Below are positions 511-23,205 of a DNA stretch of 23,205 bases, piece after piece (the first letter of the stretch is position 1; the number at the start of each line of letters is the position of its first letter). Both the position numbers and the translations under genes were made by a program. The notes under the pieces were generated by a model, which saw nothing but the letters and a program-made list of their open reading frames with translations, was not told the DNA's origin and ran no database searches. The DNA lies in the IMG/VR virus record IMGVR_UViG_3300023184_000538, positions 1 to 23,205 of that record. One strand, 5' to 3'. The DNA is from a virus.

Positions 511-2734
511 TCTATATACTAGGCTTAGCGAATTACTTCCAGCTAATACCATACACATGAAGAATAAGGCCAAGTCTTGGGCCTATGGTTATGACGAGAA
601 GCACGATCTGGTTGTTATATCTAAGGACGGAACCATCGGTGACATATACGAGATAAACGGTCTCAATATAGCGCTGCCATCCGTCCCAAAAATTGTGTAT
701 AAAAGGGACGAGAAGAAGGAGAATCAGTACTGGGAACCAGCTGACTATCCTAGGGAACTATCAAATATAAAGTCTATATTCCAGTGGCACACGATGTCAA
801 AGGAGTTCAAGGCTAAGTGGGTTGACTACATAGAGGGAGAGTTTGACCGTAGGGAGAACGGGTTCTTCTTCAAGAATAACGGGATAGATACGTACATAAC
901 TGGTTCTCAGTACATGTACCTACAGTGGACAAAGATTGACGTTGGACTTCCAGACTTTAGGGAGGCTAACAGGATATTCTTTATATTTTGGGAGGCGTGC
1001 AAGGCTGACGACAGGTGCTTCGGTATGACCTACCTGAAAATCAGACGTTCTGGTTTCTCGTTCATGGGATCAAGCGAGCTGGCTAATATAGGAACACTTG
1101 CAAAGGATGCAAGACTTGGCATACTGTCAAAGACTGGTAACGATGCCAAGACAATGTTTACTGACAAGGTTGTACCTATTGTGAACAACTACCCGTTCTT
1201 CTTCAAGCCGATACAGGATGGTATGGACAAGCCTAAGACAGAATTAGCGTTCAGGGTTCCTGCGTCAAAGATTACAAAGAAGAACATGTACGAGGATGGT
1301 GATGTTGAGATCGAGGGCCTTGACACCACAATTGACTGGAAGAACACAGGAGACAACTCTTACGATGGTCAGAAGCTACAGCTACTGATACATGACGAGA
1401 GCGGTAAGTGGCTAGCACCAGATAACATCCTGAACAACTGGAGGGTTACCAAGACATGTCTACGATTAGGTAGCAGGATAATCGGTAAGTGCCTAATGGG
1501 ATCAACGCCTAACGCTCTTGCAAAGGGAGGATCTAACTTCAAGAAGCTGTACGAGGACTCAAACATAAAGACAAGGAACAACAACGGACAGACTAAGTCT
1601 GGTATGTACTCGCTGTATATACCGATGGAGTGGAACTTTGAGGGGTACATAGACATCTACGGTATGCCAGTGTTCAGAGAGCCAGCAAAGCCAGTGCAGA
1701 GTATAGATAAGTCTATGATAAAGACTGGTGCAGTTGACTACTGGGAGAACGAGGTAGAGTCACTTAAGTCTGACGCTGATGCCCTTAACGAGTTCTACAG
1801 GCAGTTCTCTAGGACAGAGTCTCACGCGTTCAGGGACGAGAGCAAGTCATCCATATTCAACCTAACAAAGATATACCAGCAGATAGACTACAACGACTCT
1901 CTTATAAAGGACAGGGTTCTGACTCGTGGATCTTTTAGTTGGTACGAAGGAAAGAAGGACACAAAGGTTGTATGGACACCAGACACAAGGGGAAGGTTCC
2001 TAGTATCCTGGATACCAAGTAACCAGATGCAGAATAACGTCATCAATAAGAATGGGATGAAGTACCCAGGTAACGACCATATCGGTGCGTTTGGTTGTGA
2101 CCCTTATGACATATCTGGGACAGTTGGTGGTGGTGGATCTAACGGATCACTTCATGGACTCACTAAGTTCAATATGGACGACGCACCTAGTAACCACTTC
2201 TTCCTTGAGTACATAGCAAGGCCACAGACCGCAGAGATATTCTTTGAGGAGGTACTGATGGCGTGTGTGTTCTATGGCATGCCTATACTTGTTGAGAATA
2301 ATAAGCCAAGGCTACTGTACCACCTAAAGAACAGGGGTTACAGGGGATTCTCTATGAACAGGCCAGACAAGCACGTAACGAACCTATCTAAGACAGAGAA
2401 GGAACTAGGAGGTATACCCAACTCATCTGAGGACGTTAAGCAGTCACACGCGGCTGCAATTGAGTCATACATAGAGAAGTACGTAGGACTAGATATGGAG
2501 GGAACGTACAGGGACTCTGACGAGATGGGCGACATGTACTTCACAAGAACTATAGAGGAGTGGGCCAAGTTTGATATTAATAATCGTACAAAATTTGATG
2601 CCGCAATTAGCTCTGGACTAGCTATAATGGCTAATCAAAAGAATGTGTACCTTACGGCAAAAAAAGAATCGAAATTAAGCATTACCTTTGCGAAATATAA
2701 TAATAACGGAAGATATAGTGAAATTATAAAATAG
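488..2734 (+). CDS. terL: Terminase large subunit (packaging ATPase and nuclease)
   Basis: This is the packaging motor that translocates and cuts phage DNA. The ATPase domain shows a lambda-gpA-like deviant P-loop KIRRSGFS at residues 184-191, with the lysine at its start and phenylalanine where the usual Walker A lysine would be. It is followed by Walker B LLIHDE with D303 and E304, and by motif III MGSTPN at 337-342. The nuclease domain follows, with GCDPYD (D538) as the likely first metal ligand. About 748 residues and the sequence RRSGFSFMGSSE...ILSKTGNDAKTMF match crAss-like terminases as I know them. The start is uncertain: TTG at 488 gives the length above, while ATG at 557 would give 725 residues; the conserved region begins only after the ATG (KSWAYGYDEKHDLVVISK). 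The last roughly 50 codons switch to AAA-rich use next to the homing endonuclease. The stop codon overlaps the next start by one base. Confidence 0.93.
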   Translation: MQKKDQNNLYTRLSELLPANTIHMKNKAKSWAYGYDEKHDLVVISKDGTIGDIYEINGLNIALPSVPKIVYKRDEKKENQYWEPADYPRELSNIKSIFQWHTMSKEFKAKWVDYIEGEFDRRENGFFFKNNGIDTYITGSQYMYLQWTKIDVGLPDFREANRIFFIFWEACKADDRCFGMTYLKIRRSGFSFMGSSELANIGTLAKDARLGILSKTGNDAKTMFTDKVVPIVNNYPFFFKPIQDGMDKPKTELAFRVPASKITKKNMYEDGDVEIEGLDTTIDWKNTGDNSYDGQKLQLLIHDESGKWLAPDNILNNWRVTKTCLRLGSRIIGKCLMGSTPNALAKGGSNFKKLYEDSNIKTRNNNGQTKSGMYSLYIPMEWNFEGYIDIYGMPVFREPAKPVQSIDKSMIKTGAVDYWENEVESLKSDADALNEFYRQFSRTESHAFRDESKSSIFNLTKIYQQIDYNDSLIKDRVLTRGSFSWYEGKKDTKVVWTPDTRGRFLVSWIPSNQMQNNVINKNGMKYPGNDHIGAFGCDPYDISGTVGGGGSNGSLHGLTKFNMDDAPSNHFFLEYIARPQTAEIFFEEVLMACVFYGMPILVENNKPRLLYHLKNRGYRGFSMNRPDKHVTNLSKTEKELGGIPNSSEDVKQSHAAAIESYIEKYVGLDMEGTYRDSDEMGDMYFTRTIEEWAKFDINNRTKFDAAISSGLAIMANQKNVYLTAKKESKLSITFAKYNNNGRYSEIIK
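2683..2690 (+). promoter_or_regulatory. Weak candidate promoter (-7 box) for the homing endonuclease
   Basis: TACCTTTG fits the Bacteroidota -7 consensus TAnnTTTG and is the same octamer as the one before the GNAT gene. It lies inside the last codons of the terminase gene, 43 bases before the endonuclease GTG. No -33 TTTG is seen at the usual distance, and a chance match in coding sequence is quite possible. Confidence 0.15.
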
Positions 2735-3408
2735 TGGCATATTTATATAGACATATTAGATTAGATAAAAATATACCATTCTACATAGGAATAGGTATAG
2801 ATAGTAATTACTATAGAGCTAATTCTAAAAAAAGTAGAAATGATCACTGGAATAAAATAGTAAATAAAACAGAATACGAAGTAGAGATACTATTTGAGCA
2901 CGAAGATTATAATTTTATAAAAGAGAAGGAAAAAGAATTTATATTTTTGTATGGTAGAAAAGATACCAATAATGGGATGTTAGTTAATAAGACTGATGGT
3001 GGAGATGGTTGTTTAGGATTAATTCATTCAGATGAAGCTAAATTAAAAATGAGTATTCCAAACAAAGGAAAAATAATTTCTGAAGAACAAAAGAGAAAAG
3101 TTTCTGAATTTCATAAAGGAAAAATTGTAAGTAAAGAAACAAGGTTAAAAATGTCAGAGGCTAGAAAAGGAGATAAAAATTCAAGATACGGTAAAACTAT
3201 TTCTGAAGATACTCGTAATAAAATGATAAGTTCTGCAAGAAGAGGTTCTGAAAATGTTACTGCAAAACTAAGTGAAAATGATGTAATATCTATTAGAAAA
3301 ATGTACAAAACTAAAAAATATACTTATTTAAAATTAGCTGAAATTTATGCAATTTCAAGAAGTAATATAAAATCTATATTAAACAGAAATACTTGGAAAC
3401 ATATATAA
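2734..3408 (+). CDS. Free-standing GIY-YIG homing endonuclease with NUMOD3 repeats
   Basis: This nuclease probably cuts phage genomes that lack it, so that repair copies the gene across. The GIY-YIG domain occupies residues 3-92: YLYRH (3-7, the GIY strand), FYIGIG (16-21, the YIG strand), candidate conserved arginines R28 and R35, likely catalytic glutamate E66 in the pattern E-x-x-F-I, and the late asparagine N85 in LVNKTDGGDG. Residues 97 to about 165 hold several short NUMOD3-type DNA-binding repeats, each ending in a GK or RKG turn. The C-terminus (KLAEIYAISRSNIKSILNR) reads as a helix-turn-helix. The start is GTG, overlapping the terminase TAG by one base, and the domain begins at once so no earlier start is needed. 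The stop abuts the portal ATG directly. The gene is much richer in A+T and in AAA lysine codons than its neighbours, a sign of recent arrival. No intron surrounds it. Confidence 0.88.
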   Translation: MAYLYRHIRLDKNIPFYIGIGIDSNYYRANSKKSRNDHWNKIVNKTEYEVEILFEHEDYNFIKEKEKEFIFLYGRKDTNNGMLVNKTDGGDGCLGLIHSDEAKLKMSIPNKGKIISEEQKRKVSEFHKGKIVSKETRLKMSEARKGDKNSRYGKTISEDTRNKMISSARRGSENVTAKLSENDVISIRKMYKTKKYTYLKLAEIYAISRSNIKSILNRNTWKHI

Positions 3409-5844
3409 ATGAAAGACGTAAAAATAAATATACCTGAGACTGCATTTCCAGATCAGTTTGCTTCAGATAAACAAAAAGAATCTTACGAATACGGATTACA
3501 GATTGGTAACGCTATCTCTTACGAGTGGTTCAGGAAAGATAACCATAACTCAAGATTTTATAATCAGTGGGGGGACTTCCATAGATTAAGACTATACGCA
3601 AGGGGAGAGCAGTCAGTGGCCAAGTACAAGAACGAGATGGCTGTTGATGGCGACCTTAGTCATTTAAACCTAGACTGGACTCCAGTACCTATCATACCTA
3701 AGTTTGTTGATGTTGTTGTTAACGGAATGAATGACAGACTGTTCAAGGTTAAGGCATACGCACAGGATTCGATATCACTACAGAAGAAGACCAAGTATCA
3801 GGACATGATACAGGCAGACATGCTATCAAAGGATATATTAACTGGCATTAAGGATAATCTAGGTGTTGACGCGTTCGACACAAATCCAGATGAGTTACCA
3901 GAGAACGACGAGGAACTTGCTCTATACATGGAGCTTAAGTACAAGCCAGCGATAGAGATTGCTGAGGAGGAGGCCATCAACACTGTACTAGACCAGAATA
4001 ACTACAACGAGACAAGAAAGAGGATAGACTATGACATTGCCACACTAGGAATAGGTGTTGCAAAGCATATGTTCCTTCCAGGTGCTGGTGTAAAGATTGA
4101 GTACGTAGACCCAGCAAATGTTGTACATAGTTACACAGAGGATCCAAACTTCAAGGACTGCTTCTACTGGGGAGAGATCAAGACAGTTCCAATAACGGAG
4201 CTTGTAAAAATAGATCCTAGCTTAACTAATGAACAACTTGAAGAGATTTCTAAGTATAGTCAGTCTTGGTATAACTACTACAATTCATCCCAGTTTTATA
4301 ATAACAGCCTCTTTAGCAAGGACTCTGCTACACTGCTATATTTTAACTATAAGACGACCAAGAATATAGTATACAAGAAGAAGAACCTAGACAATGGTAA
4401 CTTCAAGATAATAGACAAAGAAGACACGTTCAATCCTCCACAGGAGATGATGGACGAGGGTAACTTCGAAAAGATTGAGAAGAGAATAGACGTGTGGTAC
4501 GATGGTATCATGGTCATGGGAACTAATATAATGCTGAAGTGGGAGCTGTCAAGGAATATGGTAAGACCTAAGTCTGCATCTCAGCGTGCGATACCAAATT
4601 ACGTAGCAGTTGCACCAAGGATGTACAAGGGAGCCATAGAGTCACTCGTTAAGAGGATGATACCGTTCGCTGACCTTATACAGGTTACTCACTTAAAACT
4701 ACAGCAGGTCATATCTAAGGTTGTACCTGATGGTGTATTCATTGATGCCGATGGTATCAACGAGGTAGACCTTGGAACTGGATCAGCATACACACCAGAG
4801 GACGCACTCAGACTATACTTCCAGACTGGTAGTGTTATCGGTAGGAGCTACACAGGAGATGGTGAGTTTAATAATGCAAGGGTTCCTATCCAGGAGCTTA
4901 ACTCTAATAGTGGACAGGCCAAGATATCTAGCCTTGTAGGAAGTTACAACCACTACCTAGGAATGATTAGAGATGTTACAGGACTTAACGAGGCACGTGA
5001 CGGCTCTATGCCAGATCCAAACTCTTTGGTTGGTGTACAGAAACTAGCAGCACTTAACTCAAACACAGCTACAAGACACATACTAGAGTCTAGCTTATAC
5101 ATTACAAGGACTCTATCTGAAGCTATATCTTATAGGGTTGCTGATATACTAGAGTACTCAGACTTTAAGGACGAGTTCATACTTCAGATTGGTAAGTACA
5201 ACGTGAGTATACTTGAGGACATAAAGGATCTTCATATATACGACTTTGGTATATTTATAGAGGTTGCTCCAGATGAGGAAGAGAAGGCACAACTAGAGGC
5301 TAACATTCAGATGGCTCTATCTAGAGATGCTATTTATTTAGAGGATGCAATAGACATCAGGGAGATTAGAAACCTTAAGCTGGCTAATCAGTATCTTAAA
5401 CTTCAGAGAAAGAAGAAGGAGGACACGGTTCAGAAGAACCAACAGGCTCAGCAACAGATGCAGGGTCAGATACAACAGCAGTCTCAACAGGCGGCAGCTC
5501 AGAATAATTTACAGGCCATACAGGCAGAGACACAGTCTAAGATGCAGATCAAGCAGGCTGAAGTTGGTTTTGATATTGAGAAATTGAAACAAGAGGCTCA
5601 GCTTAAGATGGAACTTATGAGGATGGAGTTTGATCTACAGATGCAACTAAAAGGCGTTGAGACAGAGCAACTTAATCAGAAGGACACACTTAAGGAGAAG
5701 GCAAAAGATAAGAGAATAAGCATACAGAATACACAACAATCAAAGTTAATTGACCAGCGTAAGAATAACCTTCCACCTGTAAACTTTGAATCGAATGAGG
5801 ATAGCTTGGACGGATTCGATATGGCTGAATTCGAACCAAGATAA
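3409..5844 (+). CDS. Portal protein
   Basis: The 811-residue protein is the twelve-subunit ring at one capsid vertex through which DNA enters and leaves. The call rests on its position after terminase and before scaffold and capsid genes, its length (typical of crAss-like portals) and the conserved stretch RLYARGEQSV...LSHLNLDWTPVPIIPKFVDVVVNGM at about residues 63-107. The middle, about residues 390-560 (MYKGAIESLVKRMIPFADLI, then DVTGLNEARDGSMPDPNSLV), resembles the stem/tunnel region of long portals. From about residue 665 the protein becomes a glutamine-rich helical tail (QQAQQQMQGQIQQQSQQAAA) with coiled-coil character, ending in an acidic segment SNEDSLDGFDMAEFEPR; this probably forms the barrel inside the head. 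The ATG directly abuts the upstream stop. The first roughly 50 codons are AAA-rich like the neighbouring endonuclease, then AAG predominates. Confidence 0.88.
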   Translation: MKDVKINIPETAFPDQFASDKQKESYEYGLQIGNAISYEWFRKDNHNSRFYNQWGDFHRLRLYARGEQSVAKYKNEMAVDGDLSHLNLDWTPVPIIPKFVDVVVNGMNDRLFKVKAYAQDSISLQKKTKYQDMIQADMLSKDILTGIKDNLGVDAFDTNPDELPENDEELALYMELKYKPAIEIAEEEAINTVLDQNNYNETRKRIDYDIATLGIGVAKHMFLPGAGVKIEYVDPANVVHSYTEDPNFKDCFYWGEIKTVPITELVKIDPSLTNEQLEEISKYSQSWYNYYNSSQFYNNSLFSKDSATLLYFNYKTTKNIVYKKKNLDNGNFKIIDKEDTFNPPQEMMDEGNFEKIEKRIDVWYDGIMVMGTNIMLKWELSRNMVRPKSASQRAIPNYVAVAPRMYKGAIESLVKRMIPFADLIQVTHLKLQQVISKVVPDGVFIDADGINEVDLGTGSAYTPEDALRLYFQTGSVIGRSYTGDGEFNNARVPIQELNSNSGQAKISSLVGSYNHYLGMIRDVTGLNEARDGSMPDPNSLVGVQKLAALNSNTATRHILESSLYITRTLSEAISYRVADILEYSDFKDEFILQIGKYNVSILEDIKDLHIYDFGIFIEVAPDEEEKAQLEANIQMALSRDAIYLEDAIDIREIRNLKLANQYLKLQRKKKEDTVQKNQQAQQQMQGQIQQQSQQAAAQNNLQAIQAETQSKMQIKQAEVGFDIEKLKQEAQLKMELMRMEFDLQMQLKGVETEQLNQKDTLKEKAKDKRISIQNTQQSKLIDQRKNNLPPVNFESNEDSLDGFDMAEFEPR

Positions 5845-6970: not shown

Positions 6971-8392
6971 ATGCCAGCACAAGTAGCCAGTACCCCAGGG
7001 TACGCATTACAGCCAAGCGCAACGAGACAAACTCTTGCGACAAATTACATCACTGACTTCAACTTCTTGAATCAGTACCTTCCAGACACGTACGAAAAAG
7101 AATTCGAGCGTTATGGAAATCGCTCAGTAGCATCTTTCTTAAGAGCTGTTGGAGCTGAGATGCCATCTACATCAGACCTTATCAAGTGGGCTGAACAAGG
7201 GCGTCTACACACTAAGTACGTAAACTGTGCCTCTGGAGCAGCAGCTGGAGCTGACACTGCAACAATCACAGTTTCTGACACATTGATCCCATCTTCTAAC
7301 CTTTCTGGTACCGCTAGAATTGCGTTTAAAGTTGGTCAAACAGTATTGATCTCTGACAACGCGTCTTCAAAATCAAACAAGGGTATCATCACAGCTGTAT
7401 CTTCTTCTGCTAACACATTTGATGTTGCATACTACGCAGCTGCAGGCCAAACATTTGCAGCTACAGATACTGTAAGTTGTTTTGTTTACGGTTCTGAGTT
7501 CAGAAAAGGAACAGAAGGAATGGTTCAGTCTGTTGAAGCATCTGACTCTATCTTCTCTAACAACCCAATCATCATCAAAGAGAAGTACGCTGTTACTGGA
7601 TCTGACATGGCTCAGATTGGATGGATTGAGGTTACAACTGAGAATGGAGCTACAGGATTCTTGTGGTACATTAAATCAGAGCACGAAACTCGTTTGCGTT
7701 TCGAGGATTACTTAGAGATGTCTATGATCGAGGCAGTTCCTGCTGAGGCAGCTTCTGGAGCTATTGCTACTACATCTGTAGGAAACAAAGGATCTGAGGG
7801 TATGTTCTATGTTATCGGAAACAGAGGTAACGTATTCAGTGGTGGTAATCCAACCGCATTGTCTGACTTTGATGAGATCATCAAGAGACTTGACAAGCAA
7901 GGTGCTATCGAAGAGAATGTGTTGTTCATCAACCGTCAGTTCTCTTTTGACATTGACGATATGTTAGCAGCTCAAAACTCTTACGGATCAGGTGGTACAT
8001 CTTACGGTTTGTTTGATAACGACAAGGAGATGGCATTGAACTTAGGGTTCACAGGTTTCCGTAGAGGTTATGACTTCTACAAGACTGACTGGAAGTACTT
8101 AAATGATGCAGCCCTTAGAGGTGGTATCGTTGGTGGTGCTATCAATGGTGTATTAGTTCCAGCTGGATCTACTACAGTATACGATCAGGTTCTTGGTAAA
8201 AACGCTAAACGTCCATTCTTACACGTACGTTACAGAGCTTCTGAGACAGAAGACAGACGTTACAAGACTTGGATCACAGGTTCTGCAGGTGGAGCACAAA
8301 ACTCTAGCTTAGATGCAATGGAGGTTCACTTCTTATCTGAGAGAGCTTTATGTACATTAGGAGCTAATAACTTCTTCTTGTTCACAAACTAG
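6971..8392 (+). CDS. Major capsid protein
   Basis: The 473-residue protein follows the scaffold gene by 11 bases and has the length of crAss-like capsid proteins, which adopt the HK97 fold. The N-terminus FNFLNQYLPDTYEKEFERYG and FLRAVGAEMPSTSDLIKWAE (about residues 26-80) is the segment conserved in this capsid family as I know it. Residues about 83-172 are Ser, Thr, Ala and Val rich (DTATITVSDTLIP, KVGQTVLISDN) and look like a beta-barrel insertion. The C-terminal half includes GNRGNVFSGGN, FINRQFSFDIDDMLAAQNSY and HFLSERALCTLGANNFFLFT. Codon use differs from its neighbours: arginine is mostly CGT here but AGA or AGG elsewhere, and AAC and TTC are favoured, as expected for the most abundant virion protein. 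A strong terminator follows. The A-rich leader carries no Shine-Dalgarno sequence. Confidence 0.88.
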   Translation: MPAQVASTPGYALQPSATRQTLATNYITDFNFLNQYLPDTYEKEFERYGNRSVASFLRAVGAEMPSTSDLIKWAEQGRLHTKYVNCASGAAAGADTATITVSDTLIPSSNLSGTARIAFKVGQTVLISDNASSKSNKGIITAVSSSANTFDVAYYAAAGQTFAATDTVSCFVYGSEFRKGTEGMVQSVEASDSIFSNNPIIIKEKYAVTGSDMAQIGWIEVTTENGATGFLWYIKSEHETRLRFEDYLEMSMIEAVPAEAASGAIATTSVGNKGSEGMFYVIGNRGNVFSGGNPTALSDFDEIIKRLDKQGAIEENVLFINRQFSFDIDDMLAAQNSYGSGGTSYGLFDNDKEMALNLGFTGFRRGYDFYKTDWKYLNDAALRGGIVGGAINGVLVPAGSTTVYDQVLGKNAKRPFLHVRYRASETEDRRYKTWITGSAGGAQNSSLDAMEVHFLSERALCTLGANNFFLFTN

Positions 8393-10869: not shown

Positions 10870-13800
10870 ATGGCAAACACACTTGATTCAGCTGAAGCAT
10901 TATTCTACGCTGGGAGAATGAATAAGGACCTTGACGAAAGATTTATTAGACCAGGTGAGTACATAGACGCACTTAACATAAGAATTGGATCATCAGAGCT
11001 TGGTGCAACAACTAACTCAGACTTGGGAAGTGCTGGTGCTATAGAGAACACTAAGGGAAACACATTACTTACTAACCTTAAGTACATTAGTTATAATGAT
11101 GCCAAGTGTATTGGAGCCTATGAGGACTCAACTAACGAGACCATATACTGGTTTGTAGCTTCTGAAGATGCTGACGTTGTTGTGTCATACAATGTAAATA
11201 ATAGTGTTACTATATATCACCTAGTTGGTAACTTAAACTTCGATAAAAAGTATCTTATAAATGGCATAAATAAGATTGACGACTTATTATTTTGGACGGA
11301 TAACTTAAATCCACCAAGAAGAATAAACGTAACAAAGACTTACAATAACTTTGATGAGAGTGATATATCTGTGATAGTTGCTCCTCCAATGAGCGCTCCA
11401 CTAGTTTCATTATATAACACTCCAGGAGAGGAGAACTACATACTTGACAAGTTTATATCGTTCTCATACAGATACAAATACGACAACGGTGAGTACAGCG
11501 CGCTGTCTCAGTTTGCAGACATAGCGTTTGAGCCAGGAGAGTTTGAGCTGGACTACTCTAACTTTACAAATGTAGGGATGACAAACTCTTTCAACTCTGT
11601 TTTAGTTCAGTTTAATACTGGACCAAGGCAGGTTGTTGGTATTGATATATGCTTTAAACTATCTAACTCAACAATTATAAATGTTGTAGAGAAGTTTGAT
11701 AAGAAAAAGGAAGGGTGGTTTGATAATAAAACAGATCAGACACTTACATTCACAAACAGAAAGATATACACTACACTTCTAGAGAGTGAGCTACTAAGAC
11801 TGTACGATAATGTTCCAAGGACTGCAAAGGCACAGACATCTATCGGTAACAGGATAATGTACGCTAACTATATAGATGGTTACGATGTTGGAGAGGTTGA
11901 CTACTTACTACAGGTTATAAGCAGTGATCCAGAGGATAACTCGCTTCCAGTTGCCTATACTGATGGAGTTGATTATACAATAGACCCTGCAACAACTAAA
12001 ACTGTATCTGGGTCAAATATAAATATAGATTTTTCTAATCGTCCACTAAAGAAGAACTTTGTACTTACAATAGATTTTAACATAATAAGTAACTCGTACT
12101 CTGGAAACTCTAACTTTGATAATCCACCAACCTCTCCAGGTCCTGGATCTTCTAATAATTTCTCGTACACGTTTTCTTATTTATTGTTAAAGGACTATGG
12201 ATCAGTATACGAGTTAGCTAATAGTCAGGAGTTTAAAGATGCAGTATCTACACACAAGCCATACGCTAATGCAAATCCACCATTGTCACTTACAGATGCG
12301 TTTAATGCTGATAAGGTTCCAAAGATAGCATATACTCCATATGGTGAGTGGCTTGATATAAATAGTGGAATAACCGCTATAGATGGATCATTTAAAATAA
12401 CAGCGTCTATAGGAAGTAACATACTTGGTATACAGTGCCCTGCGGTTAAGTTTAGTACAGAGTACCCATCAGGTACATTTTTATATGGATACCAGTACTT
12501 TAATAACTCAACAACTGATGTATACTTTACAGAACTAGGAGCCAAGAAGAGTCTACATAGTAACAGGGACTATGAGGTTGCTATAGTTTATATGGATGAT
12601 TACTTGAGGAGTTCTACAGCACTTGTAGATACTGAAAATACAGTATTCATAGACTCTACGCACTCAGCTAATATAAATAATATTAGGGTAACACTAAAAA
12701 ATTTACCTCCAGTTTGGGCTACAAAGTATAAGTTTGTACTTAAGCAGTCTTTATCAACTTATGAGACAGTTTATACAAACCTATTCTTTAAAGATGATCA
12801 GGGTAATACATGGTTTAGATTAGAGGGTGATAATAGACAGAAGGTTTCTGAAAATCAGACATTAATAGTTAAGAAGGATACAGTTGGAGTTGTAAATAAC
12901 TTAACAACAACAACAGTTTTAGAGTTAGTTACTCAGTCTGAGGACTTTATAAGTAACAATGAGAATAGTAATGGAGATCTAATAACGGAACCAGCAGGAC
13001 TATACATGAGACTTAGACCATCTGGTTTTACAGCTGAGTACGATCCTGATTCGTTTAGATATGACGGAATTAAAACTAGTAGCAACTATTCTGACTATTA
13101 TTTTGACGAGTTAAATCCAGATTTTATTCCAGGAGATCCAATTGATCCAGATAATAGAAAGTATAGACCATTTGCTGTTCCAGCAGGAAGTCAAATAAAG
13201 TTTACAATTGGAATGCATAGAGACGGTTCTGGAAATCGTTGTGATGACTTCTGGTATGACTATAGTAAGACGTTCATAGCTGCTGAAGATTATGCTGATA
13301 TGTTCCAGTGGTACTTGGCTCAGGGAGTAAACTTTGATGACGGAACATTTGCTGGAGGTGAGACTCCTCCTGAAAACGTACAGTGGTATGAACTTGTAAG
13401 TTATAGTGAGCCTATGTTTAATTATAATGATAGTTGGTATGGAGAACAAGTGAGTAATTTCTTCTTTCAGGCAGAGGATATAAATATTACTCCTGGAGGA
13501 AATGTTGTTCCTGCTCAGGGACGACTTAGGTTCAGAGCTACAACTGGTATTCCTTGCTGTAGATGTAATGGAATAAATCCAAAGCACTCTAGAGTTACAT
13601 TAAACATAAGTGTACAGACTGGATCTGGGATGATTATATTTGAGACACAACCAGAGCCTTCTAACGGTGAGATATACTACGAGAACAGTCAGAGCTTTGA
13701 TATTGTTGAAGTTAGTGGATCTAAGTATCACATGAGTGGATCTGGACTATACGATCAGAATCAGACTAGTACACAGCCTGCTGTAATCGACTTAGATTTC

Positions 13801-15300
13801 TTCAACTGCTTCACGTTTGGTAACGGTGCAGAGAGTTACAAGGTAGGTGACTCACTTACAGGAGCTCCATTCTATTTAGGAAGCAGGGTTACTGCTGTAT
13901 CACAGGAGGACTTCAAGGAGGCAAACAGGTACGCAACAATAACATACAGTGGAGTTTACAATGAGGAGACAAACCTAAACAAACTAAACGAGTTCAACCT
14001 TGCACTAGTAAACTGGAAGGACTGCGAGAAGTCTTTCGGACCAATAAACGTGATACACGCAAGAAAGACGGACGTTCTAGTACTACAGGAGGATAAGATA
14101 TCTAGTGTATTAGTGTTAAAGAACTTAATTTCTGATGCTGCTGGTGGAGGTGCTATAACATCTAATCTAGAGGTACTTGGAACTCAGATAGCTAGGATAG
14201 AGGAGTACGGAATAAGTAACAACCCAGAGAGTTTCGTTGTTTACGGATACGACTCTTACTTTACTGATACTAAGAGAAACGTGGTTCTTAACCTAAAGGG
14301 TGAGGATCTTACTCCTATATCTAGTCTAGGTATGACAAACTGGTTTAGATCTCAGTTCAAGGATAGGGTTGGATACCAGAACATTGGAGGATATGATCCA
14401 TATATGAAGGAGTACATACTTTCACTTAATGAGAATCAACTTCCGTCAGATCCTATACTATATAACTGTGGCACTACAATATCACAGTACAGATTTAATG
14501 ATACGTATACGTTTGAGGTTGAGCTTGGGAATGGATTAGGAGATGTTGTTCTTGATTACAATATATTATATGGAGAGGCTCAAGTTGTTGTTAGTTATAA
14601 TGAGAATGTTGTTATAGATGAGATACTGATGTCAAGTGGTTCTTATTCATTCTATAAAGATACTCTGTTTCCTACAAAGGCACAGGTGACTGTATATGCA
14701 GAGTACGCAACATATAATATGACAATAAACTGTCCAGTAACTCAGGAGATAACAGTTGTTAGGGTTGTTCTTAACTCTGTTGATAACTTAGGAGAGACAG
14801 TACATAATAACTATAACTGGACACTTGACTCTATATCTAGTGCTTACAATACGGACTTCATAACTATGGAGGCCGACGGTGTATCGCTATACGATTCTGA
14901 CACTGGAATGTCTTCACAAGGGGTACTTCCTGCGTTTGGAAGTACAGTCAAGATGAGTTCTAATAAACTTACTGATGACACGTTTGTGTTTAATAATAAT
15001 AAATTCAAGTACCTAGTATCTGACACGCTGTACACAGAGGCCGAGATTAACTTATTACGAGGAGAACTTCTTATTCCTATTAATCCTATTATAAGTCCTT
15101 CCGCTGGAAACTATGAGACTAGTTTTGTATATGATAATCCAGATGGATATCAGTACCTGTACCTAGTGTGGGATTATTCAATAAGCACACCTATAAACCT
15201 GTGTTATGATGAAACATCTATAAATGATGTCTGTAACTGTGTTTTACCAGACTATGAAATAGCAGATTATTCAGAAACAGATTATTCAGTAACAATTTAA
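10870..15300 (+). CDS. Tail stabilization / muzzle-type protein
   Basis: The 1476-residue protein is the largest complete gene here. Its N-terminus AGRMNKDLDERFIRPGEYID (residues 14-33), then ALNIRI and GAIENTKGN, is the hallmark of the crAss-like 'stabilization' or muzzle protein that closes the bottom of the short tail. A second conserved core spans about residues 1010-1190, with YATITYSGVYNEETNLNKLN, KTDVLVLQEDKISSVL, LGTQIARIEEYGISNNPESF and IGGYDPYMKEYILS. Between them is a long Asn, Ser, Asp and Tyr rich region (about 370-1000) with a cysteine cluster CCRC near residue 895. After the core come Ig-like beta repeats (FEVELGNGLGDVVLDYNI and YNMTINCPVTQEITVVRVVL) and an acidic Tyr-rich tail. 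Codons in the conserved core end in G or C more often than in the AT-rich middle, a mosaic pattern. The role is known for the crAss family; the assignment here is by signature. Confidence 0.8.
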   Translation: MANTLDSAEALFYAGRMNKDLDERFIRPGEYIDALNIRIGSSELGATTNSDLGSAGAIENTKGNTLLTNLKYISYNDAKCIGAYEDSTNETIYWFVASEDADVVVSYNVNNSVTIYHLVGNLNFDKKYLINGINKIDDLLFWTDNLNPPRRINVTKTYNNFDESDISVIVAPPMSAPLVSLYNTPGEENYILDKFISFSYRYKYDNGEYSALSQFADIAFEPGEFELDYSNFTNVGMTNSFNSVLVQFNTGPRQVVGIDICFKLSNSTIINVVEKFDKKKEGWFDNKTDQTLTFTNRKIYTTLLESELLRLYDNVPRTAKAQTSIGNRIMYANYIDGYDVGEVDYLLQVISSDPEDNSLPVAYTDGVDYTIDPATTKTVSGSNINIDFSNRPLKKNFVLTIDFNIISNSYSGNSNFDNPPTSPGPGSSNNFSYTFSYLLLKDYGSVYELANSQEFKDAVSTHKPYANANPPLSLTDAFNADKVPKIAYTPYGEWLDINSGITAIDGSFKITASIGSNILGIQCPAVKFSTEYPSGTFLYGYQYFNNSTTDVYFTELGAKKSLHSNRDYEVAIVYMDDYLRSSTALVDTENTVFIDSTHSANINNIRVTLKNLPPVWATKYKFVLKQSLSTYETVYTNLFFKDDQGNTWFRLEGDNRQKVSENQTLIVKKDTVGVVNNLTTTTVLELVTQSEDFISNNENSNGDLITEPAGLYMRLRPSGFTAEYDPDSFRYDGIKTSSNYSDYYFDELNPDFIPGDPIDPDNRKYRPFAVPAGSQIKFTIGMHRDGSGNRCDDFWYDYSKTFIAAEDYADMFQWYLAQGVNFDDGTFAGGETPPENVQWYELVSYSEPMFNYNDSWYGEQVSNFFFQAEDINITPGGNVVPAQGRLRFRATTGIPCCRCNGINPKHSRVTLNISVQTGSGMIIFETQPEPSNGEIYYENSQSFDIVEVSGSKYHMSGSGLYDQNQTSTQPAVIDLDFFNCFTFGNGAESYKVGDSLTGAPFYLGSRVTAVSQEDFKEANRYATITYSGVYNEETNLNKLNEFNLALVNWKDCEKSFGPINVIHARKTDVLVLQEDKISSVLVLKNLISDAAGGGAITSNLEVLGTQIARIEEYGISNNPESFVVYGYDSYFTDTKRNVVLNLKGEDLTPISSLGMTNWFRSQFKDRVGYQNIGGYDPYMKEYILSLNENQLPSDPILYNCGTTISQYRFNDTYTFEVELGNGLGDVVLDYNILYGEAQVVVSYNENVVIDEILMSSGSYSFYKDTLFPTKAQVTVYAEYATYNMTINCPVTQEITVVRVVLNSVDNLGETVHNNYNWTLDSISSAYNTDFITMEADGVSLYDSDTGMSSQGVLPAFGSTVKMSSNKLTDDTFVFNNNKFKYLVSDTLYTEAEINLLRGELLIPINPIISPSAGNYETSFVYDNPDGYQYLYLVWDYSISTPINLCYDETSINDVCNCVLPDYEIADYSETDYSVTI
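15263..15289 (+). repeat. 12-bp direct repeat at the end of the muzzle gene
   Basis: CAGATTATTCAG occurs at 15263-15274 and again at 15278-15289, separated by three bases. It produces the repeated peptide ADYSETDYS at the extreme C-terminus, eleven bases before the end of the gene. Perfect identity suggests a recent slippage duplication; function, if any, is unknown. Confidence 0.8.
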
Positions 15301-16963: not shown

Positions 16964-17368
16964 ATGTACATACGAAAGTTAGAGCATAGTGACTACGACG
17001 ATATACTGTCTAAGTGGTGGACAGACTGGAGATGGTTAGTTCCTCCAAGAGATTTCTTACCAGAGGATGCTACTGGTGGTCTAATTATATACGACGAGGA
17101 TGTTCCAGTTTGTGCTGGATTTGTCTACATGACAAACTCTAAGGTTGGATGGGTTGAGTTTGTGGTATCAAATAGAGAATACAGAGATAAGGAGAATAGG
17201 AAACTGTACCTTTCAACTCTTATAGACTCGTTAGGAAATATACTAAAGAGTGTCGGGGCAAAGTACACGTACGTGTCTCTAAAGAACGAGAGTCTAATAA
17301 AAATATACGAGGAGCTTGGATACGTTAAGGGATCCAATGGATGTTTAGAAATGATAAAACAATTATAG
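16964..17368 (+). CDS. GNAT-fold N-acetyltransferase-like protein
   Basis: The 134-residue protein has the size and layout of a single GNAT domain. It begins IRKLEHSDYDDILSKWW (strand 1 and helix 1), continues with the aromatic run WWTDWRW (18-24) and PPRDFLPED (27-35), then strands VPVCAGFVYMTNSKVGWVEF (47-66) and VVSNREYRD, a helix at 79-97, the strand YTYVSLKN (101-108) and motif B LIKIYEELGYVKGS. In active GNATs the loop after the fourth strand reads R/Q-x-x-G-x-G/A and holds acetyl-CoA; here that place reads NREYRDKENRKLYL with no glycine, so the cofactor pocket is degenerate. Similar genes with the same WWxDWRW...PPRDFLP block occur in structural modules of marine phages, as I recall. 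It has its own promoter and leads straight into the ejection-protein genes (one-base gap). Confidence 0.72.
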   Translation: MYIRKLEHSDYDDILSKWWTDWRWLVPPRDFLPEDATGGLIIYDEDVPVCAGFVYMTNSKVGWVEFVVSNREYRDKENRKLYLSTLIDSLGNILKSVGAKYTYVSLKNESLIKIYEELGYVKGSNGCLEMIKQL

Positions 17369-17369
17369 T

Positions 17370-18209
17370 ATGCCATTATTTACAACAGCAGCAGCAGCTG
17401 CGGGCACAGCAGCAGTTATAGCAGGAGTAGGTACAGCAGCATCAATAGGAATGAACCTATCTGCAGCTGCAAAACAGTCCAAGGCTCAGTCTGCGGCAGA
17501 GCAGGCAGCTGGAGAGGCTGCTAAAAAAGCAGAGTCAGAGTACCAGAAGGAGTTTATGGGTGGCGTACAGCTACCTATGGAGGCTTACCAGCAGGCATCA
17601 AGGGCAGAGACGGCACAGCAGATGCAGTCACTACAGGCACTACAGGAGGCAGACACACGATCTCTTGCAGCAGGTGTTGGAAAGGTTCAAGCAGAGGCAA
17701 CAAAGGGACAGGCTGAAATATCACAGCAGATGGGCAAGGATCTGTATACACTAGAGGCTGCACAGGCAGCTGAGAAACAAAAGAATAGGGATGCAATAGC
17801 TAGGATGAATGAGCAGAGAGCTATGGGAGCACAGGCTGCTGCAGCAAATGCAGAGATGGCAAAGATGAATGCTTATGCAGGTATAGGAACTAGTTTATCT
17901 GGATTAGGACAGATGGTGAGTAAGTCATCTTCTTTATATCCAAATACTGGAGATGCTCCAGATATTAGTAAAGGATTTACTGTAAACGGATCTACATCTC
18001 CACTAAGTAGTGGATTTAATCCAGCTAGTCAGTCACCAATAGGAGATAGATTTGCAACTCCTATAACCCCTACTCCTAAAGCATTTGGACCACAGAACGC
18101 ATACGGTATTTTTCAACAGTATCCTGGAGTAACTTCTCCACAACAGCAGTTGATTAATGATTTAGGATATAATCCAAATGATATGTATTCATCAGGATCT
18201 GGATATTAA
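17370..18209 (+). CDS. Internal virion (ejection-type) protein, Ala/Gln-rich
   Basis: The 279-residue protein begins with an Ala/Gly-rich hydrophobic stretch (TTAAAAAGTAAVIAGVGTAA, residues 5-24), long enough to span a membrane or to form an amphipathic insertion helix. Residues about 30-185 are one long Ala, Gln, Glu and Lys helix region (for example SKAQSAAEQAAGEAAKKAES, then AANAEMAKMNAYAGIG). From about 190 to the end it is Ser, Pro, Asn and Gly rich and probably disordered. Short Ala-rich proteins with a hydrophobic N-terminus, placed just before larger internal proteins, are typical of podovirus ejection proteins (T7 gp14-like in position and style), which leave the virion with the DNA and help it cross the cell envelope. 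It is a compositional match, not a sequence match. Gap to the GNAT gene: one base. Confidence 0.6.
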   Translation: MPLFTTAAAAAGTAAVIAGVGTAASIGMNLSAAAKQSKAQSAAEQAAGEAAKKAESEYQKEFMGGVQLPMEAYQQASRAETAQQMQSLQALQEADTRSLAAGVGKVQAEATKGQAEISQQMGKDLYTLEAAQAAEKQKNRDAIARMNEQRAMGAQAAAANAEMAKMNAYAGIGTSLSGLGQMVSKSSSLYPNTGDAPDISKGFTVNGSTSPLSSGFNPASQSPIGDRFATPITPTPKAFGPQNAYGIFQQYPGVTSPQQQLINDLGYNPNDMYSSGSGY

Positions 18210-18222
18210 TAAAAATAAATAA

Positions 18223-19743
18223 ATGGAATACTACGGATACAAGGACAGAGGCGAGGCAGGTAACCCTATAGTTGACTGGAGTAAGATTGCAAGCGACCTT
18301 ACAGCTAATCTAACAAAGATTGAAGAGGGTAGAGAGGCAAAGCGTAAGGAGATCGACGATGTTACCCAAAACTATATCGATGAGATCAATAAGGTAGACG
18401 TTGGTCACAGCCAGTCTATGGGTACGTTCATTCAGGACGCAGCCAACTCTACAAAGCAGTACACTCTAATGCAACAGAAACTTCTGAAGCAGGGTAAGAT
18501 AGACCCTAACCAGTACAAGATGAACCTGCAGAATCAGAAGGACTCATGGGCAGCATTTACTGGTGTTTCTAAGAACTGGAACGCTAACTACGACAGGTTC
18601 GTAGATCTTCAGAATAAAGGACTTGTTGGACAGCAGGCCGCAGATATGATGGAGAAACTTGGAAGTATGCAGGACCTACAGAATAAGAAGGCATACATAG
18701 ATCCAGCAAGTGGAAACCTGTACGCTGCTGAGTATGATAAGAATGGAAAGATAGACACCACAAAGTTTCAGCCTACGAGTGCTACTACTTTATTGAAGTT
18801 GATGGGAGATACACCTTTAAAGGTGAACGTAACCGCTGAGGTTGCTAAGAACAACAAGATAGCAGAGTTCAAGAGGGTTATTGGCAACAGAAGTATATCG
18901 GATCCAACCATTAGACCAGAGTATGAAAGAATGTCTGAACAGATAGCTAATAGTGTACTGTCTACAGATAGAGCAATTGGAAGCGTACTTATGGATGCTG
19001 TGGGTGGATATAAGGCTACATTTCAAACAGATCCTAAGTTATACACAGATCAAGAAAAAGAACTCTCTAAGGCAGGGAAACTAATTACATATAAGTTAGA
19101 CGGAACTGGGAACTACAACCCAGCTGACTTTACACCAGCACAGATGGAGGAGGCTAAGAAGGCTGTCAAGGACAACCTAAGGTCACAGCTTGGATACGAG
19201 GCAGAGCCTATTAAGACATCAGGTAGTGGTGGTGGATCAGATAAAGGTCCTACATGGGCTCAACAACAAAAATTTATTGAAGGTCAACCTGATTTTGGAG
19301 AGGTTATAGCTGTAAAAAATAATCAAGGAAATGTTGTAGAAGCTAAATTAGGAATCAGTAATGTTCGTATAAAGAAAGGAACTGGAGTTGAGGATGAAAT
19401 AACTGGACTTAGACTTAAAGGCGGTAAATTATTAATGGATTATACAAGATATGAAGGTTCAGAGTCACTTACTGATCAAGGATATAGAGAGACAACAAAG
19501 AAACAAACTAAACATACAATAAGTCAAGACCAGGCAGAATTATCTGCTAAATTAAAATCTTTAGGATTTAGTTCAATGTCTCAGGCAAGACAGTATCTTA
19601 AAGACCAGTCAGGTATGGTTAACTTGATGAAAGGTGCTGCTGCTGTTGCAAAAGGTCCATCAGAAGACGAGATTAAATTTTATATGAAGAAAAATCCAAA
19701 TGCAACCAGAGCTCAAATAATAGAAGGTTTAAAAAATAAATAA
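18223..19743 (+). CDS. Internal virion / cargo-type protein
   Basis: I do not recognise a specific family. The 506-residue protein is mostly helical and charged. Residues 1-150 (KIASDLTANLTKIEEGREAK, and QKLLKQGKIDPNQYKMNLQN) look like long helices, and a mixed region with YIDPASGNLYAAEYDKNGKI follows. A flexible Gly/Ser linker lies at 333-343 (SGSGGGSDKGP), then a distinct C-terminal domain begins with TWAQQQKFIEGQPDFGEVIA and includes strands around VVEAKLGISNVRIKK. The last 40 residues form a small helical segment ending NPNATRAQIIEGLKNK. Lysine codons are almost all AAG before the linker and 17 AAA to 3 AAG after it, so the C-terminal domain may have been replaced by recombination. Position between an ejection-type protein and a giant multidomain protein suggests that it is packaged in the head. 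Confidence 0.6.
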   Translation: MEYYGYKDRGEAGNPIVDWSKIASDLTANLTKIEEGREAKRKEIDDVTQNYIDEINKVDVGHSQSMGTFIQDAANSTKQYTLMQQKLLKQGKIDPNQYKMNLQNQKDSWAAFTGVSKNWNANYDRFVDLQNKGLVGQQAADMMEKLGSMQDLQNKKAYIDPASGNLYAAEYDKNGKIDTTKFQPTSATTLLKLMGDTPLKVNVTAEVAKNNKIAEFKRVIGNRSISDPTIRPEYERMSEQIANSVLSTDRAIGSVLMDAVGGYKATFQTDPKLYTDQEKELSKAGKLITYKLDGTGNYNPADFTPAQMEEAKKAVKDNLRSQLGYEAEPIKTSGSGGGSDKGPTWAQQQKFIEGQPDFGEVIAVKNNQGNVVEAKLGISNVRIKKGTGVEDEITGLRLKGGKLLMDYTRYEGSESLTDQGYRETTKKQTKHTISQDQAELSAKLKSLGFSSMSQARQYLKDQSGMVNLMKGAAAVAKGPSEDEIKFYMKKNPNATRAQIIEGLKNK

Positions 19744-19745
19744 TT

Positions 19746-22700
19746 ATGCCAGATAAAAAAATAAAGTTAGATCTAACTGGATATGTTCCTAAAAATAAAC
19801 CATCATTAGACTTAACAGGTTATGACGAATCTGTAAAAAAAAAAGTAGATTCAAAGCCTCGTTCTCAAGAGGAACTGTGGGGATCAGACTCACAACCTCA
19901 AGATTTGTATACTTCTTTGGTTACAGACGCACAGGAACCTCAACAGGAATCGGTTACTTCAGATGGGCCGCCTAAAATGAAAACATTTACTGGACTTACA
20001 CCTGAAGAGCAACAGACTCTTCAGGCTAAACCTGCTCCAGATTATATGGTTAACAAGACAAGAGAAGAAGTTAATCTTGGCAATAAAAAACCAAAGAAGA
20101 TTGAAAAAGATGCTATAGATAAAACTGTCGGATGGGTTGGAGGACTTGCCACAAAGGCAGGAGTTCCTTTATTAGAGTATGCTGATGATGTTGTTAAAGC
20201 ATCTGCAAATATATTAAGAGAAGGTGGGTTTTTTGATGATGAAATTCCTGATACTCAAACTCCAATAACAGATGCATTAAAAAATAAAGTTAAAAAAAGA
20301 GAGGGGTCAGTAGAAACAGATTCTCCTTTTGATCCAATTGAAGTTATTAAAGGAGTTGGAAATATTGCTGGTAAAATAATAAACTCATCATTAAGCCAGG
20401 ATAAAAAAAATGCTGTTATAAGAACATTAAATAACGCATCTCAAAGTTTACAAAGATATAAAGGTGGATTAGAACAAATACAATCTGAATATATGGGTCA
20501 GGATATTCCTACTCAAATAGCAGGTGGTATAGTATCATTTGTTCCAGATTTATTGGTTGCAAGTCTTCTTGATAATCCAGCTCCAGCAGAAGCAAGAATA
20601 GCTACATGGGGTAGTAAAATGTCTAAAGAGGCTGCTCCTTTAATAGAGAAATATGCTCCTAAGGCATCTAAGTTTTTACAAAAAGCAATAACTAAGGGAG
20701 GTGAATTTATAGAGGAAGGAGCTAAAGCAGGTCTAACAAAAGTAATGACCGCTAAAGGTATTACCAAAGGAATTGCAGAAGCAAAGCCAGGTGAAGATTT
20801 AACTACAGAAGGATTAAAACAAGGGGCAGAAGGATTTTTAGAAGGTCTTTATATGCACGGACTTGGTGTAATAACTGGAAAAATAACTCCAACAATATCA
20901 AAAGGAATATCAAAAGTTACAGGTGCTAATAGTGCTGTTGCATCTCTTATCACTACACCTCTAGCAAATGCAGGGGTATTTACTACAGCAAGAGCATTAA
21001 GAACAGGACTTACTGAGGGTAGGATAATAACTCCAGAAGAGGCTGCAGTTGAGGCTGGATCTGGTATTGGATTTAGTTTTCTTCATCTTGGAAGTCAGTA
21101 TAAAACACATAATGAAGCTAATCATTATTATGATAATGTGTTAAACAATAATGATGCAGATTCTTTTAGTAGAGTTATAAATGAAACTAAAGACAATTTA
21201 GATGTTGCATATAATCCAAATAGAACTGAAGCCGATACAAAAGATCTTATGGATGCTCGTGATGAATTAAAAAAAGCCATTCTAAAAGAACCTGACTTAA
21301 ATAAAAAGAAAATATTAGGAAATGAGGCTTTAAAACTTCAAAACCAGTTAGATGCATCAGTTGGTATTAAGACTATATTAGAAAATAAAGATGATATTAT
21401 TAGTTCTATAAATAGTAATGAAAAATTATCTGACGAAGAGAAGTCTTTATACACTAAAAAAACTGAAGCTATTGCAGATCATTTTGATAATTCAGAGTTT
21501 GGAATAAAGAAGAAAGAATTAAATGCAAAGATAGGTGAGGTTGAAAAACAATTGAGTCTAGCTGGAGAAGATTTTTCAAACTTAAAGAAACCATCAGATA
21601 GAGTTTCTGCTAAATTAGAAGTAGAAAAGAAAAGAAAAGAATTAGAAGCATTAAATGTAGAACTAACAGACTTAATTACAAATCAATCTGCAGTAGAAGT
21701 TGTTAAACCTGCTGAAGTTGCAGTAAAACCTACAGAAGAACAGATATTAAAAGATGTGTCTGAAGGCAATTTAGCTACATTTACATATAAAGATAAAAGT
21801 GAAGTTCCTGATGCATTTAAAGATAAAATATCTAGCGAAGGAGAAGTTAATGGAGAAAAATTTGTAAGGGTTACAGTAGCAAAATCATTAGCAGATTATG
21901 AGTTATCAAAAGCAGAAAAACCTGCAGTAGAAGAAGTTGCTCCTGCAGAAGAAGCTAAAGTAGAGCATAATGGTATTGAGTATACTAAAAATGAAGATGG
22001 TAACTGGGTTAATACTAAGACTGGAAACGAAGTAAAAGGTATAGGAGAGACTGGAAAAGAACTGATAAAAACACTTGATGAATTATCTAATCCAAAAACT
22101 GAAGCAGAAAAGTACTCAGAAGAGCTAGACCAAACTAAAGCCGATAACCCAGAAGAATATTGGTCTGTAAGTCCTGTGTCTGCAGAAGACGCAGCTAAAG
22201 GAACCATTATAGATACACCTGATGGTGCAGCTATAGTTAAGCCTGACGGTGACATCGCTGGACTGTTTAAGAAGGCTACATCAAAGGCTAAGGGTGTTGC
22301 ACAGGATCTACTTAAGAGAGCTATAGCTGCTGGAGGTAAGAAGCTGGATAACTTTGATGGATATCTAACAAAGCAGTACGAGAAGGCTGGATTCAGAATA
22401 GTATCAAGAACACCATTTAATGAGAAGTATGCAGATCCAGGATGGAATAAGGAGAAGCACGGAACACCAGATGTGGTTGCGATGATCTACGACCCAGAGG
22501 GTAAGTTAGATATACAAGAGAAGACATTTAATGATCCAGAGACTGGGTATGATGAGGCTATTGCCTACAGAGATTCGTTACTTAAACCATCACTTGAAAA
22601 TGAAATTGAGGCAATAGGAAAACTATTTGATGAGAGTGGTAGAGGATTTAATGAGTCACAGGTTGAGAATGGAAAGAAGGCTCTAGAAGATATTGTCCCT

Positions 22701-23205
22701 GGTGTTGAGTGGATTGTTCATGATACTGAAGAGTCATATAGAAAGATTGCAGGAGATAACTCTAAAGGACACTATACAAGAGACTCAGATGGTAATGTAG
22801 TTATTCATATAAATAAATCAAAAGCTGATGGAACTACTGTAGCTCATGAGGTGTTTCATGCTGTAATTTTAGATAAGATATTAAACTTAAAAGATGCTCA
22901 AGACATAACAGCTCGTATGATGAAGGCTGTATACAAGACGGCTGATCCAATATTAAGATCTAAGTTAGATGCTTTTGCAGAAATGTACCCTGACGGTATT
23001 AAGAATGAGGAGAGACTTGCTCAACTTATTGGACTTATATCTGATGGATATAAGCAGATGACTCCAGCAAACAAAAGTATAGTTAAAAGATGGCTAGACT
23101 ATTTTGCTAAGATGATTGGACGTAAGCCATTTACAGATAACGAGGTAATAGACTTACTTAATACTTTAGCTACAAAAGTTTCTACTGGTGAAGTTATTAG
23201 TGCGG
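19746..23205 (+). CDS. Giant multidomain virion protein: GNAT-like plus zinc metallopeptidase (3' partial)
   Basis: The frame stays open from the ATG at 19746 to the window end (1153 codons), so the protein is larger still. In order: a Lys-rich start with the motif LDLTGY twice (residues 8-13 and 21-26); a low-complexity segment to about 130; Gly/Ala-rich hydrophobic helices at about 255-460 (GGIVSFVPDLLVASLL), possibly membrane-active; charged coiled coil at about 480-650; Pro/Glu/Ala/Val linkers at 650-740. A GNAT-like domain at about 805-915 has KAKGVAQDLLKRAI (847-860) as motif A and QYEKAGFRIVSR as motif B. A zincin domain at about 986-1110 has HEVFH at 1034-1038 (H1034, E1035, H1038), with E1088 or E1089 as candidate third ligand. 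This layout resembles phage polyvalent proteins that are injected with DNA and counter host defences; T7 gp16-like ejection proteins are an alternative reading. The ATG lies two bases after the preceding stop. Confidence 0.75.
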   Translation, partial: MPDKKIKLDLTGYVPKNKPSLDLTGYDESVKKKVDSKPRSQEELWGSDSQPQDLYTSLVTDAQEPQQESVTSDGPPKMKTFTGLTPEEQQTLQAKPAPDYMVNKTREEVNLGNKKPKKIEKDAIDKTVGWVGGLATKAGVPLLEYADDVVKASANILREGGFFDDEIPDTQTPITDALKNKVKKREGSVETDSPFDPIEVIKGVGNIAGKIINSSLSQDKKNAVIRTLNNASQSLQRYKGGLEQIQSEYMGQDIPTQIAGGIVSFVPDLLVASLLDNPAPAEARIATWGSKMSKEAAPLIEKYAPKASKFLQKAITKGGEFIEEGAKAGLTKVMTAKGITKGIAEAKPGEDLTTEGLKQGAEGFLEGLYMHGLGVITGKITPTISKGISKVTGANSAVASLITTPLANAGVFTTARALRTGLTEGRIITPEEAAVEAGSGIGFSFLHLGSQYKTHNEANHYYDNVLNNNDADSFSRVINETKDNLDVAYNPNRTEADTKDLMDARDELKKAILKEPDLNKKKILGNEALKLQNQLDASVGIKTILENKDDIISSINSNEKLSDEEKSLYTKKTEAIADHFDNSEFGIKKKELNAKIGEVEKQLSLAGEDFSNLKKPSDRVSAKLEVEKKRKELEALNVELTDLITNQSAVEVVKPAEVAVKPTEEQILKDVSEGNLATFTYKDKSEVPDAFKDKISSEGEVNGEKFVRVTVAKSLADYELSKAEKPAVEEVAPAEEAKVEHNGIEYTKNEDGNWVNTKTGNEVKGIGETGKELIKTLDELSNPKTEAEKYSEELDQTKADNPEEYWSVSPVSAEDAAKGTIIDTPDGAAIVKPDGDIAGLFKKATSKAKGVAQDLLKRAIAAGGKKLDNFDGYLTKQYEKAGFRIVSRTPFNEKYADPGWNKEKHGTPDVVAMIYDPEGKLDIQEKTFNDPETGYDEAIAYRDSLLKPSLENEIEAIGKLFDESGRGFNESQVENGKKALEDIVPGVEWIVHDTEESYRKIAGDNSKGHYTRDSDGNVVIHINKSKADGTTVAHEVFHAVILDKILNLKDAQDITARMMKAVYKTADPILRSKLDAFAEMYPDGIKNEERLAQLIGLISDGYKQMTPANKSIVKRWLDYFAKMIGRKPFTDNEVIDLLNTLATKVSTGEVISA

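Follow-up and report, generated by a model that had tools for sequence, protein, structure and literature searches.

Internal proteins of phage T4 are directed into the virion by N-terminal capsid-targeting sequences. In most phages, how proteins are selected for injection is poorly understood. In the core stack of phage T7, an octamer of gp15 is joined by four copies of gp16, whose N-terminal part lends stability to the C-terminal part of gp15 (PMC8954989). For polyvalent proteins, injection has already been proposed, and Iyer et al. 2017 list zincin metallopeptidases and GNATs among their domains (PMC5512222). Here, we analysed IMG/VR record IMGVR_UViG_3300023184_000538, the whole 23,205 bp of which make up the window, and in particular its last gene, a giant open reading frame (ORF) that is cut by the contig end. 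We propose, with a probability of about 0.72, that a cargo-bearing last ejection protein of this kind is loaded by an exchangeable plug-and-socket code, in which a short, usually doubled tag is recognised by the tail of the preceding protein. A limited repertoire of such pairs would move between unrelated phages, from P22-like phages to the giants of Bacteroidetes podoviruses, and new cargo could be plugged in.

The giant, its tag, the proposed socket and the three genes that precede it are laid out as follows:

16964-17368, +: free-standing GNAT-like protein (phrog_17252), in the place of T7 gp13
17370-18209, +: 279-amino-acid protein with a hydrophobic N-terminus (phrog_13764, virion structural protein), in the place of T7 gp14 or P22 gp7; gp14-like
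18223-19743, +: 506-amino-acid protein that ends in the tail, in the place of T7 gp15 or P22 gp20; gp15-like
19660..19740, +: C-terminal tail SEDEIKFYMKKNPNATRAQIIEGLKNK of this upstream protein, proposed socket for the LDLTGY tag
19746..23205, +: giant polyvalent protein, 5' 1153 codons from the ATG (19746-23204), no stop before the contig end
19767..19784, +: tag copy 1, LDLTGY, residues 8-13
19806..19823, +: tag copy 2, LDLTGY, residues 21-26, followed by KKK

The original prediction, made from the letters of the window, had described an uninterrupted frame of more than 1150 codons; indeed, the frame runs for 1153 codons and stays open to the contig end. Since complete relatives measure about 2,000-3,900 amino acids, about half or more of the protein lies beyond the window.

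The giants of relatives usually start with a doubled motif and KKK as well, the motif being FVPPSDA, DPLG, LPSPSDVL, PPLPSGYEPI, PWEKY or a stretch of about 30 residues. Judged against shuffles of the same 85 N-terminal residues, duplication reached p<=0.01 in 41 of 68 N-termini, compared with 1 of 68 for a control region of the same proteins. The neighbouring proteins showed duplication in 1/62 (gp15-like), 0/52 (free-standing GNAT) and 10/63 cases (gp14-like), the last of which probably stem from coiled-coil repeats. In each of 17 phages, the locus contained two copies of the tag pattern and no more. Just past the tag, close relatives are 75-92% identical to the window, yet the tags themselves are entirely different. 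Where the giant is split, the tag sits on the first gene. A tblastn search of the phage collection with the FVPPSDA tag peptide gave no match. Scanning IMG/VR for a doubled PWE[KQ]Y returned 67 loci, all of them in frame and 2-14 amino acids after the start of a large ORF; one PWEKY-tagged protein matches phrog_770, a DNA transfer protein, with an E-value of 9e-64.

Each tag class has its own C-terminal tail on the directly upstream ejection-like protein:

PWEKY tag: tail ..GYxFxGGDPxxxxNW..
FVPPSDA tag: tail WxxLKxGQTLVGPDGxTY
DPLG tag: tail YKIKGKTYTLKQLxDMGYTEEDVKSYK
LPxPSDxL tag: tail ADWKAxGWxDxQIxQGVKEGKIK
LDL[TS]GY tag (window): tail ..NPxATRxQIIExLKNK

Nearly all of the 67 doubled PWE[KQ]Y loci stand behind an ORF ending in ..GYxFxGGDP..W.., and in the reciprocal scan, made with the tail alone, the next ORF starts with at least two PW..Y in 62 of 70 usable loci (background, 6 of 700 ORFs). 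The tail pattern of the window led to two loci, both followed by a doubled LDLSGY. One of them, L368, has an upstream body like that of the L052 family together with a tail and tag of the window type, so that both ends have been exchanged jointly. P22 fits as well: the Bacteroidetes-type loci L024 and L025 show the head of P22 gp16 and the tail of P22 gp20 again, with gp15-like bodies that are otherwise unrelated to gp20. Over 63 distinct loci, and counting only pairs with diverged gp15 bodies, tag and tail co-vary with r=0.50, a value that 0 of 5000 permutations reached. Where similar tails sit on diverged bodies, the heads were similar in 10 of 10 pairs, and no mismatched class was seen. That tag and tail have stayed together over such distances speaks for the tag binding the tail.

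Could tail and tag co-travel merely as DNA neighbours, as a recombination cassette made of the end of gene 15 and the start of gene 16, with no peptide binding involved? The two elements are adjacent in the DNA and exchangeable as one unit without binding, the tail codons of the window ending 26 bases before the first tag codon, and the flanks on either side are well conserved between close relatives, as recombination sites would be. However, the pairs persist where the upstream proteins are otherwise dissimilar (P22 versus L024 and L025, body score 0.02) and where the pair itself has diverged, and the heads agree in all ten pairs with similar tails on diverged bodies. Co-travel leaves the absence of a mismatched class among diverged genomes unexplained, and in T7 the corresponding parts, N-terminal in gp16 and C-terminal in gp15, do bind each other (PMC8954989). 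We consider such a cassette unlikely. Instead, we infer from the sequence patterns that the pairing is a docking code, which would give the giant the position of the last ejection protein. Neither tag nor tail was found as a Pfam family above the cut-off. The open-access literature yielded no paper with PWEKY, DPLGLF, FVPPSDA, DPLGLKK or LPSPSDVL (PWEQY occurs in one unrelated text) and no description of the tag-tail pairing.

The matched pair gives independent support for the giant in the last-ejection-protein slot. For the window, it would serve as independent evidence that the giant is virion cargo, the earlier basis for which was gene position only. Behind the tail nozzle gene, the order free-standing GNAT, gp14-like, gp15-like, giant equals that of T7 genes 13-14-15-16 and, without the GNAT, that of P22 genes 7-20-16. 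T7 gp13 is itself GNAT-like, and the free-standing GNAT of the window matches Pfam Phage_T7_Gp13 weakly (E 0.13). The predicted location behind ejection-protein genes proved to be conserved: among 61 relatives with at least 3.5 kb of upstream sequence, the gp14-like family precedes the giant in 59, the gp15-like family in 55 and the free-standing GNAT in 51. We regard it as likely that the giant is the last and largest ejection-type protein, in the position of gp16 of T7 and P22; virions probably carry it and inject it together with the DNA.

What does the giant carry behind its tag? It is a mosaic, in which residues 30-97, 123-675 and 783-1153 match three different sets of relatives; a Pfam search with the window protein gave no significant match. 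Its further parts are:

20112..21770, +: residues 123-675, a Gly/Ala-rich region common to only L002 and L003 (47% identity)
22092..22505, +: GNAT-fold module, residues 783-920, with a P-loop-like KAKGVA (847-852) and Y-x-K-x-GF (878-883)
22641..23204, +: zincin-like metallopeptidase module, residues 966-1153
22845..22859, +: HEVFH, residues 1034-1038
23010..23012, +: E1089, the best candidate for a third metal ligand

Residues 30-97 reach 92% identity, in another set of relatives than residues 123-675, and the latter contain a single hydrophobic segment near residues 254-279. The GNAT and HExxH motif sets both lie inside conserved modules: 15 other viral-contig loci align over both, except that L033, one of the 15, lacks similarity in the GNAT part. 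Further loci of the same order came from a second scan, for which the GNAT part was the selecting criterion. The GNAT is followed by the peptidase in about 15-25 independent contigs.

Several relatives differ in their make-up or in how they are recorded. In L032, L033 and L034 the giant is split into two consecutive ORFs, with the doubled head on the first and the peptidase on the second. The giant of L011 holds a second GNAT (residues 1701-1789), and that of L067 holds LPD23 and a DUF6782/M78-type metallopeptidase (residues 1431-1570). The giant relative L004 (MW202828.1, 741-12320), whose N-terminus is a doubled motif too, is labelled 'reticulocyte binding/rhoptry protein' and is very likely a misannotated phage polyvalent protein. 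Limnohabitans phage DC33 (L006, PQ492659.1) encodes a 3,100-amino-acid protein with the same GNAT family; it is filed under Inoviridae, yet its genome has 39 kb, and the classification looks wrong.

The GNAT-like motif pair was found at the predicted places, KAKGVAQDLLKRAI at residues 847-860 and QYEKAGFRI at residues 877-885. A GNAT fold, which had been suggested for this region, was obtained with AlphaFold2 at a predicted local distance difference test score (pLDDT) of about 90, and the PDB matches listed (50) are all GNATs, the best among them with a Z-score of 9.6 and a root-mean-square deviation of 3.2 over 121 residues. By tblastn and PHROGs, residues 785-950 tie to phrog_2563 and to small phage proteins annotated as acetyltransferases; a profile search of PDB sequences with the module gave no clear relative. 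In the window, KAKGVA replaces the canonical Q/RxxGxG/A acetyl-CoA loop, and K-G-x-A is kept in most polyvalent relatives and degenerate in L030. The free-standing and the embedded GNAT of the window belong to different GNAT-like families.

In Pseudomonas Autographiviridae, free-standing members of the embedded family are encoded close to the RNA polymerase gene, in the early part of the genome. From the same phage group comes Rac, a GNAT that shuts off host transcription (PMC7552054). The module might act like Rac of phage LUZ19, shutting off host transcription by acetylation, and both the place of its free-standing kin and the origin of Rac itself speak for this. However, Rac shows no sequence similarity to the hidden Markov model (HMM) of the module, and the acetyl-CoA loop of the window is non-canonical. 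We find a Rac-like action quite improbable. Homology of the module to Rac was considered and rejected (Rac was absent from the hits, and hhalign gave a probability of 0.2); since the two are not detectably related, the mechanism of Rac serves only as a model.

The motifs of the peptidase module, HEVFH at residues 1034-1038 and NEERL at residues 1087-1091, lie exactly where they had been placed; from the composition of the protein, 0.011 HExxH motifs are expected. An acidic ligand had been suggested at residue 1088 or 1089. Of these, E1089 is the better candidate, being kept in every row scored at its column (two rows are gapped there), whereas position 1088 is N or S in some HExxH-bearing relatives. 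A model of residues 966-1153 alone reached a mean pLDDT of 79 and a predicted template modelling score of 0.71. Its elements follow one another as helix, strand, helix, strand, strand, HExxH helix and further helices, a later one of which starts with a Glu pair, and this order is that expected for zincins. Zincins predominate among the structural matches listed (lethal-factor-type, pro-pro endopeptidases, SprT-like, IrrE, selecase), and the virion RNA polymerase of phage N4 also appears there with its zincin-like region. The best Foldseek match in the PDB had an E-value of 0.11, a profile search of PDB sequences gave no clear relative (IrrE weakly, E 0.027), and in BFVD the strongest named match was a large polyvalent protein. 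The Z-scores of the zincins are low, 4-6 with a best value of 6.0; thus, the fold is supported rather than proven. Conservation and the match list together speak for a zincin-like peptidase that has HExxH and a distal Glu.

Conservation of HExxH in homologues depends on how these are collected. Loci L011-L090 were found with a pattern that included VAHE[VI]FH, which makes conservation circular in that set, and an HExxH-free control scan with residues 1044-1153 gave only three known loci; the GNAT-selected set L100-L179 was used instead. There, all strong matches to the C-terminal part of the peptidase (E<1e-20) keep HExxH, as the original prediction required of its homologues. Other members of the set (L115, L118-L121, L123-L125, L140, L141 and L145) have HEAWE or HEIWE in its place and retain E1089. 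These form a divergent group that probably lacks the activity, being probable pseudo-peptidases or having an altered metal site.

What might the peptidase cut? It may mainly process the giant itself, dividing it before or after injection. Iyer et al. propose self-processing for polyvalent proteins generally, citing the processing of P1 DdrB (PMC5512222), and the division of the giant into two genes in L032-L034 looks as though separate pieces function. On the other hand, no cleavage site was found in the giant, the second His is missing in some relatives, and N4 virion RNA polymerase, according to the same paper, has such a domain yet is packaged unprocessed (PMC5512222). We rate self-processing as a tentative reading, somewhat short of even odds. 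Alternatively, the module could be an effector that cuts a host protein of defence, transcription or the envelope. Zincins that cleave proteins of other organisms are in the fold list, as is N4 virion RNA polymerase, and the catalytic residues are retained in close relatives. Nothing points to a substrate, however. The sequence of the module is also maintained in many phages whose other domains are mostly different, and a house-keeping function, for example processing, would account for this no less well. An effector role appears doubtful to us.

Combining tag, tail and modules, we propose the following course. During assembly, the doubled tag, LDLTGY twice, would bind the matching C-terminal tails of the gp15-like protein; a giant with two tags would match the ratio of two gp15 to one gp16 in the T7 core stack. 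The complex of gp15-like protein and giant would pass out via the tail, before the DNA or along with it. Once inside the new host, the GNAT-fold module would acetylate a host target, and the zincin-like module would cleave a host protein or else divide the giant into working pieces. A sequence-readable pairing of consecutive ejection proteins would reveal injected proteins from the genome sequence alone and would explain how very different cargo proteins use one delivery machine.

Several observations weigh against this proposal. Duplication at p<=0.01 is not seen in 27 of the 68 giants, including that of elemo (L038), and tag and tail, as neighbours in the DNA, could be exchanged without binding. 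HMMs of the upstream proteins showed no significant similarity to T7 gp13, gp14 or gp15; the T7 assignment therefore rests on order, size and tags and describes position and likely role, not family membership. To these points are added the low zincin Z-scores and the lack of sequence similarity of the GNAT module to Rac, the sole characterised phage GNAT considered. Given the HEAWE variants, moreover, peptidase activity is not needed in every relative.

The main remaining genes of the window are:

488-2734, +: terminase large subunit (phrog_6681, E 3e-168)
2734-3408, +: homing-endonuclease-like insert (phrog_314)
3409-5844, +: portal protein (phrog_6547, E 6e-146)
6971-8392, +: structural protein (phrog_13704)
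10870-15300, +: 1476-amino-acid structural protein

The homing-endonuclease-like gene sits between the terminase and portal genes, with its start inside the terminase stop codon. Two small structural proteins (+) precede the 1476-amino-acid protein; in their layout, though only in that respect, these three genes recall the crassvirus ring and muzzle genes. The nozzle-like gene is separated from the free-standing GNAT by short putative fibre genes (+). The terminase is 72% identical to that of MW202828 (60,850 bp, uncultured) and about 45% identical to those of the Flavobacterium phages elemo, whose homologous locus terminates with a 3694-amino-acid 'structural protein'. The source of the window is an Elemovirus-related Bacteroidetes podovirus.

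How does the giant compare with described systems? It is a polyvalent protein as in Iyer et al. 2017: unrelated activities, a GNAT fold and a zincin-like module, are predicted in one frame, and the terminase and portal genes of the window give it a phage context. Those of Iyer et al. are likewise very long phage proteins, encoded close to late genes, in which enzyme domains of unrelated kinds are joined, and LPD23 together with a second metallopeptidase domain is also found in the window relative L067. The original prediction had seen in the GNAT-peptidase combination a candidate for an undescribed function; this is a weak claim, as both domains are on the list of Iyer et al. (PMC5512222). The GNAT-peptidase order of Elemovirus-like phages was not found in that paper, and its passages searched for a doubled N-terminal tag do not discuss one. 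The members of phrog_2563 and the early-gene GNATs of Autographiviridae (BUCT553, Achelous) are of the same GNAT family as residues 783-920; however, the Autographiviridae GNATs are separate small early genes, whereas the module of the window sits inside a late, probably packaged protein. N4 virion RNA polymerase gp50 is a giant virion protein with a zincin-like region as well, residues 2158-2366 of which align to our model with a Z-score of 4.3; in contrast to gp50, the part of the giant inside the window yielded no RNA polymerase domain. With gp16 of T7 and P22 the giant shares the place in the 13-14-15-16 or 7-20-16 order, but it is far longer and carries extra enzyme modules. In contrast to the capsid-targeting sequences of T4, finally, the tag of the window is doubled, varies between phages and has its counterpart in the tail of one particular partner protein.

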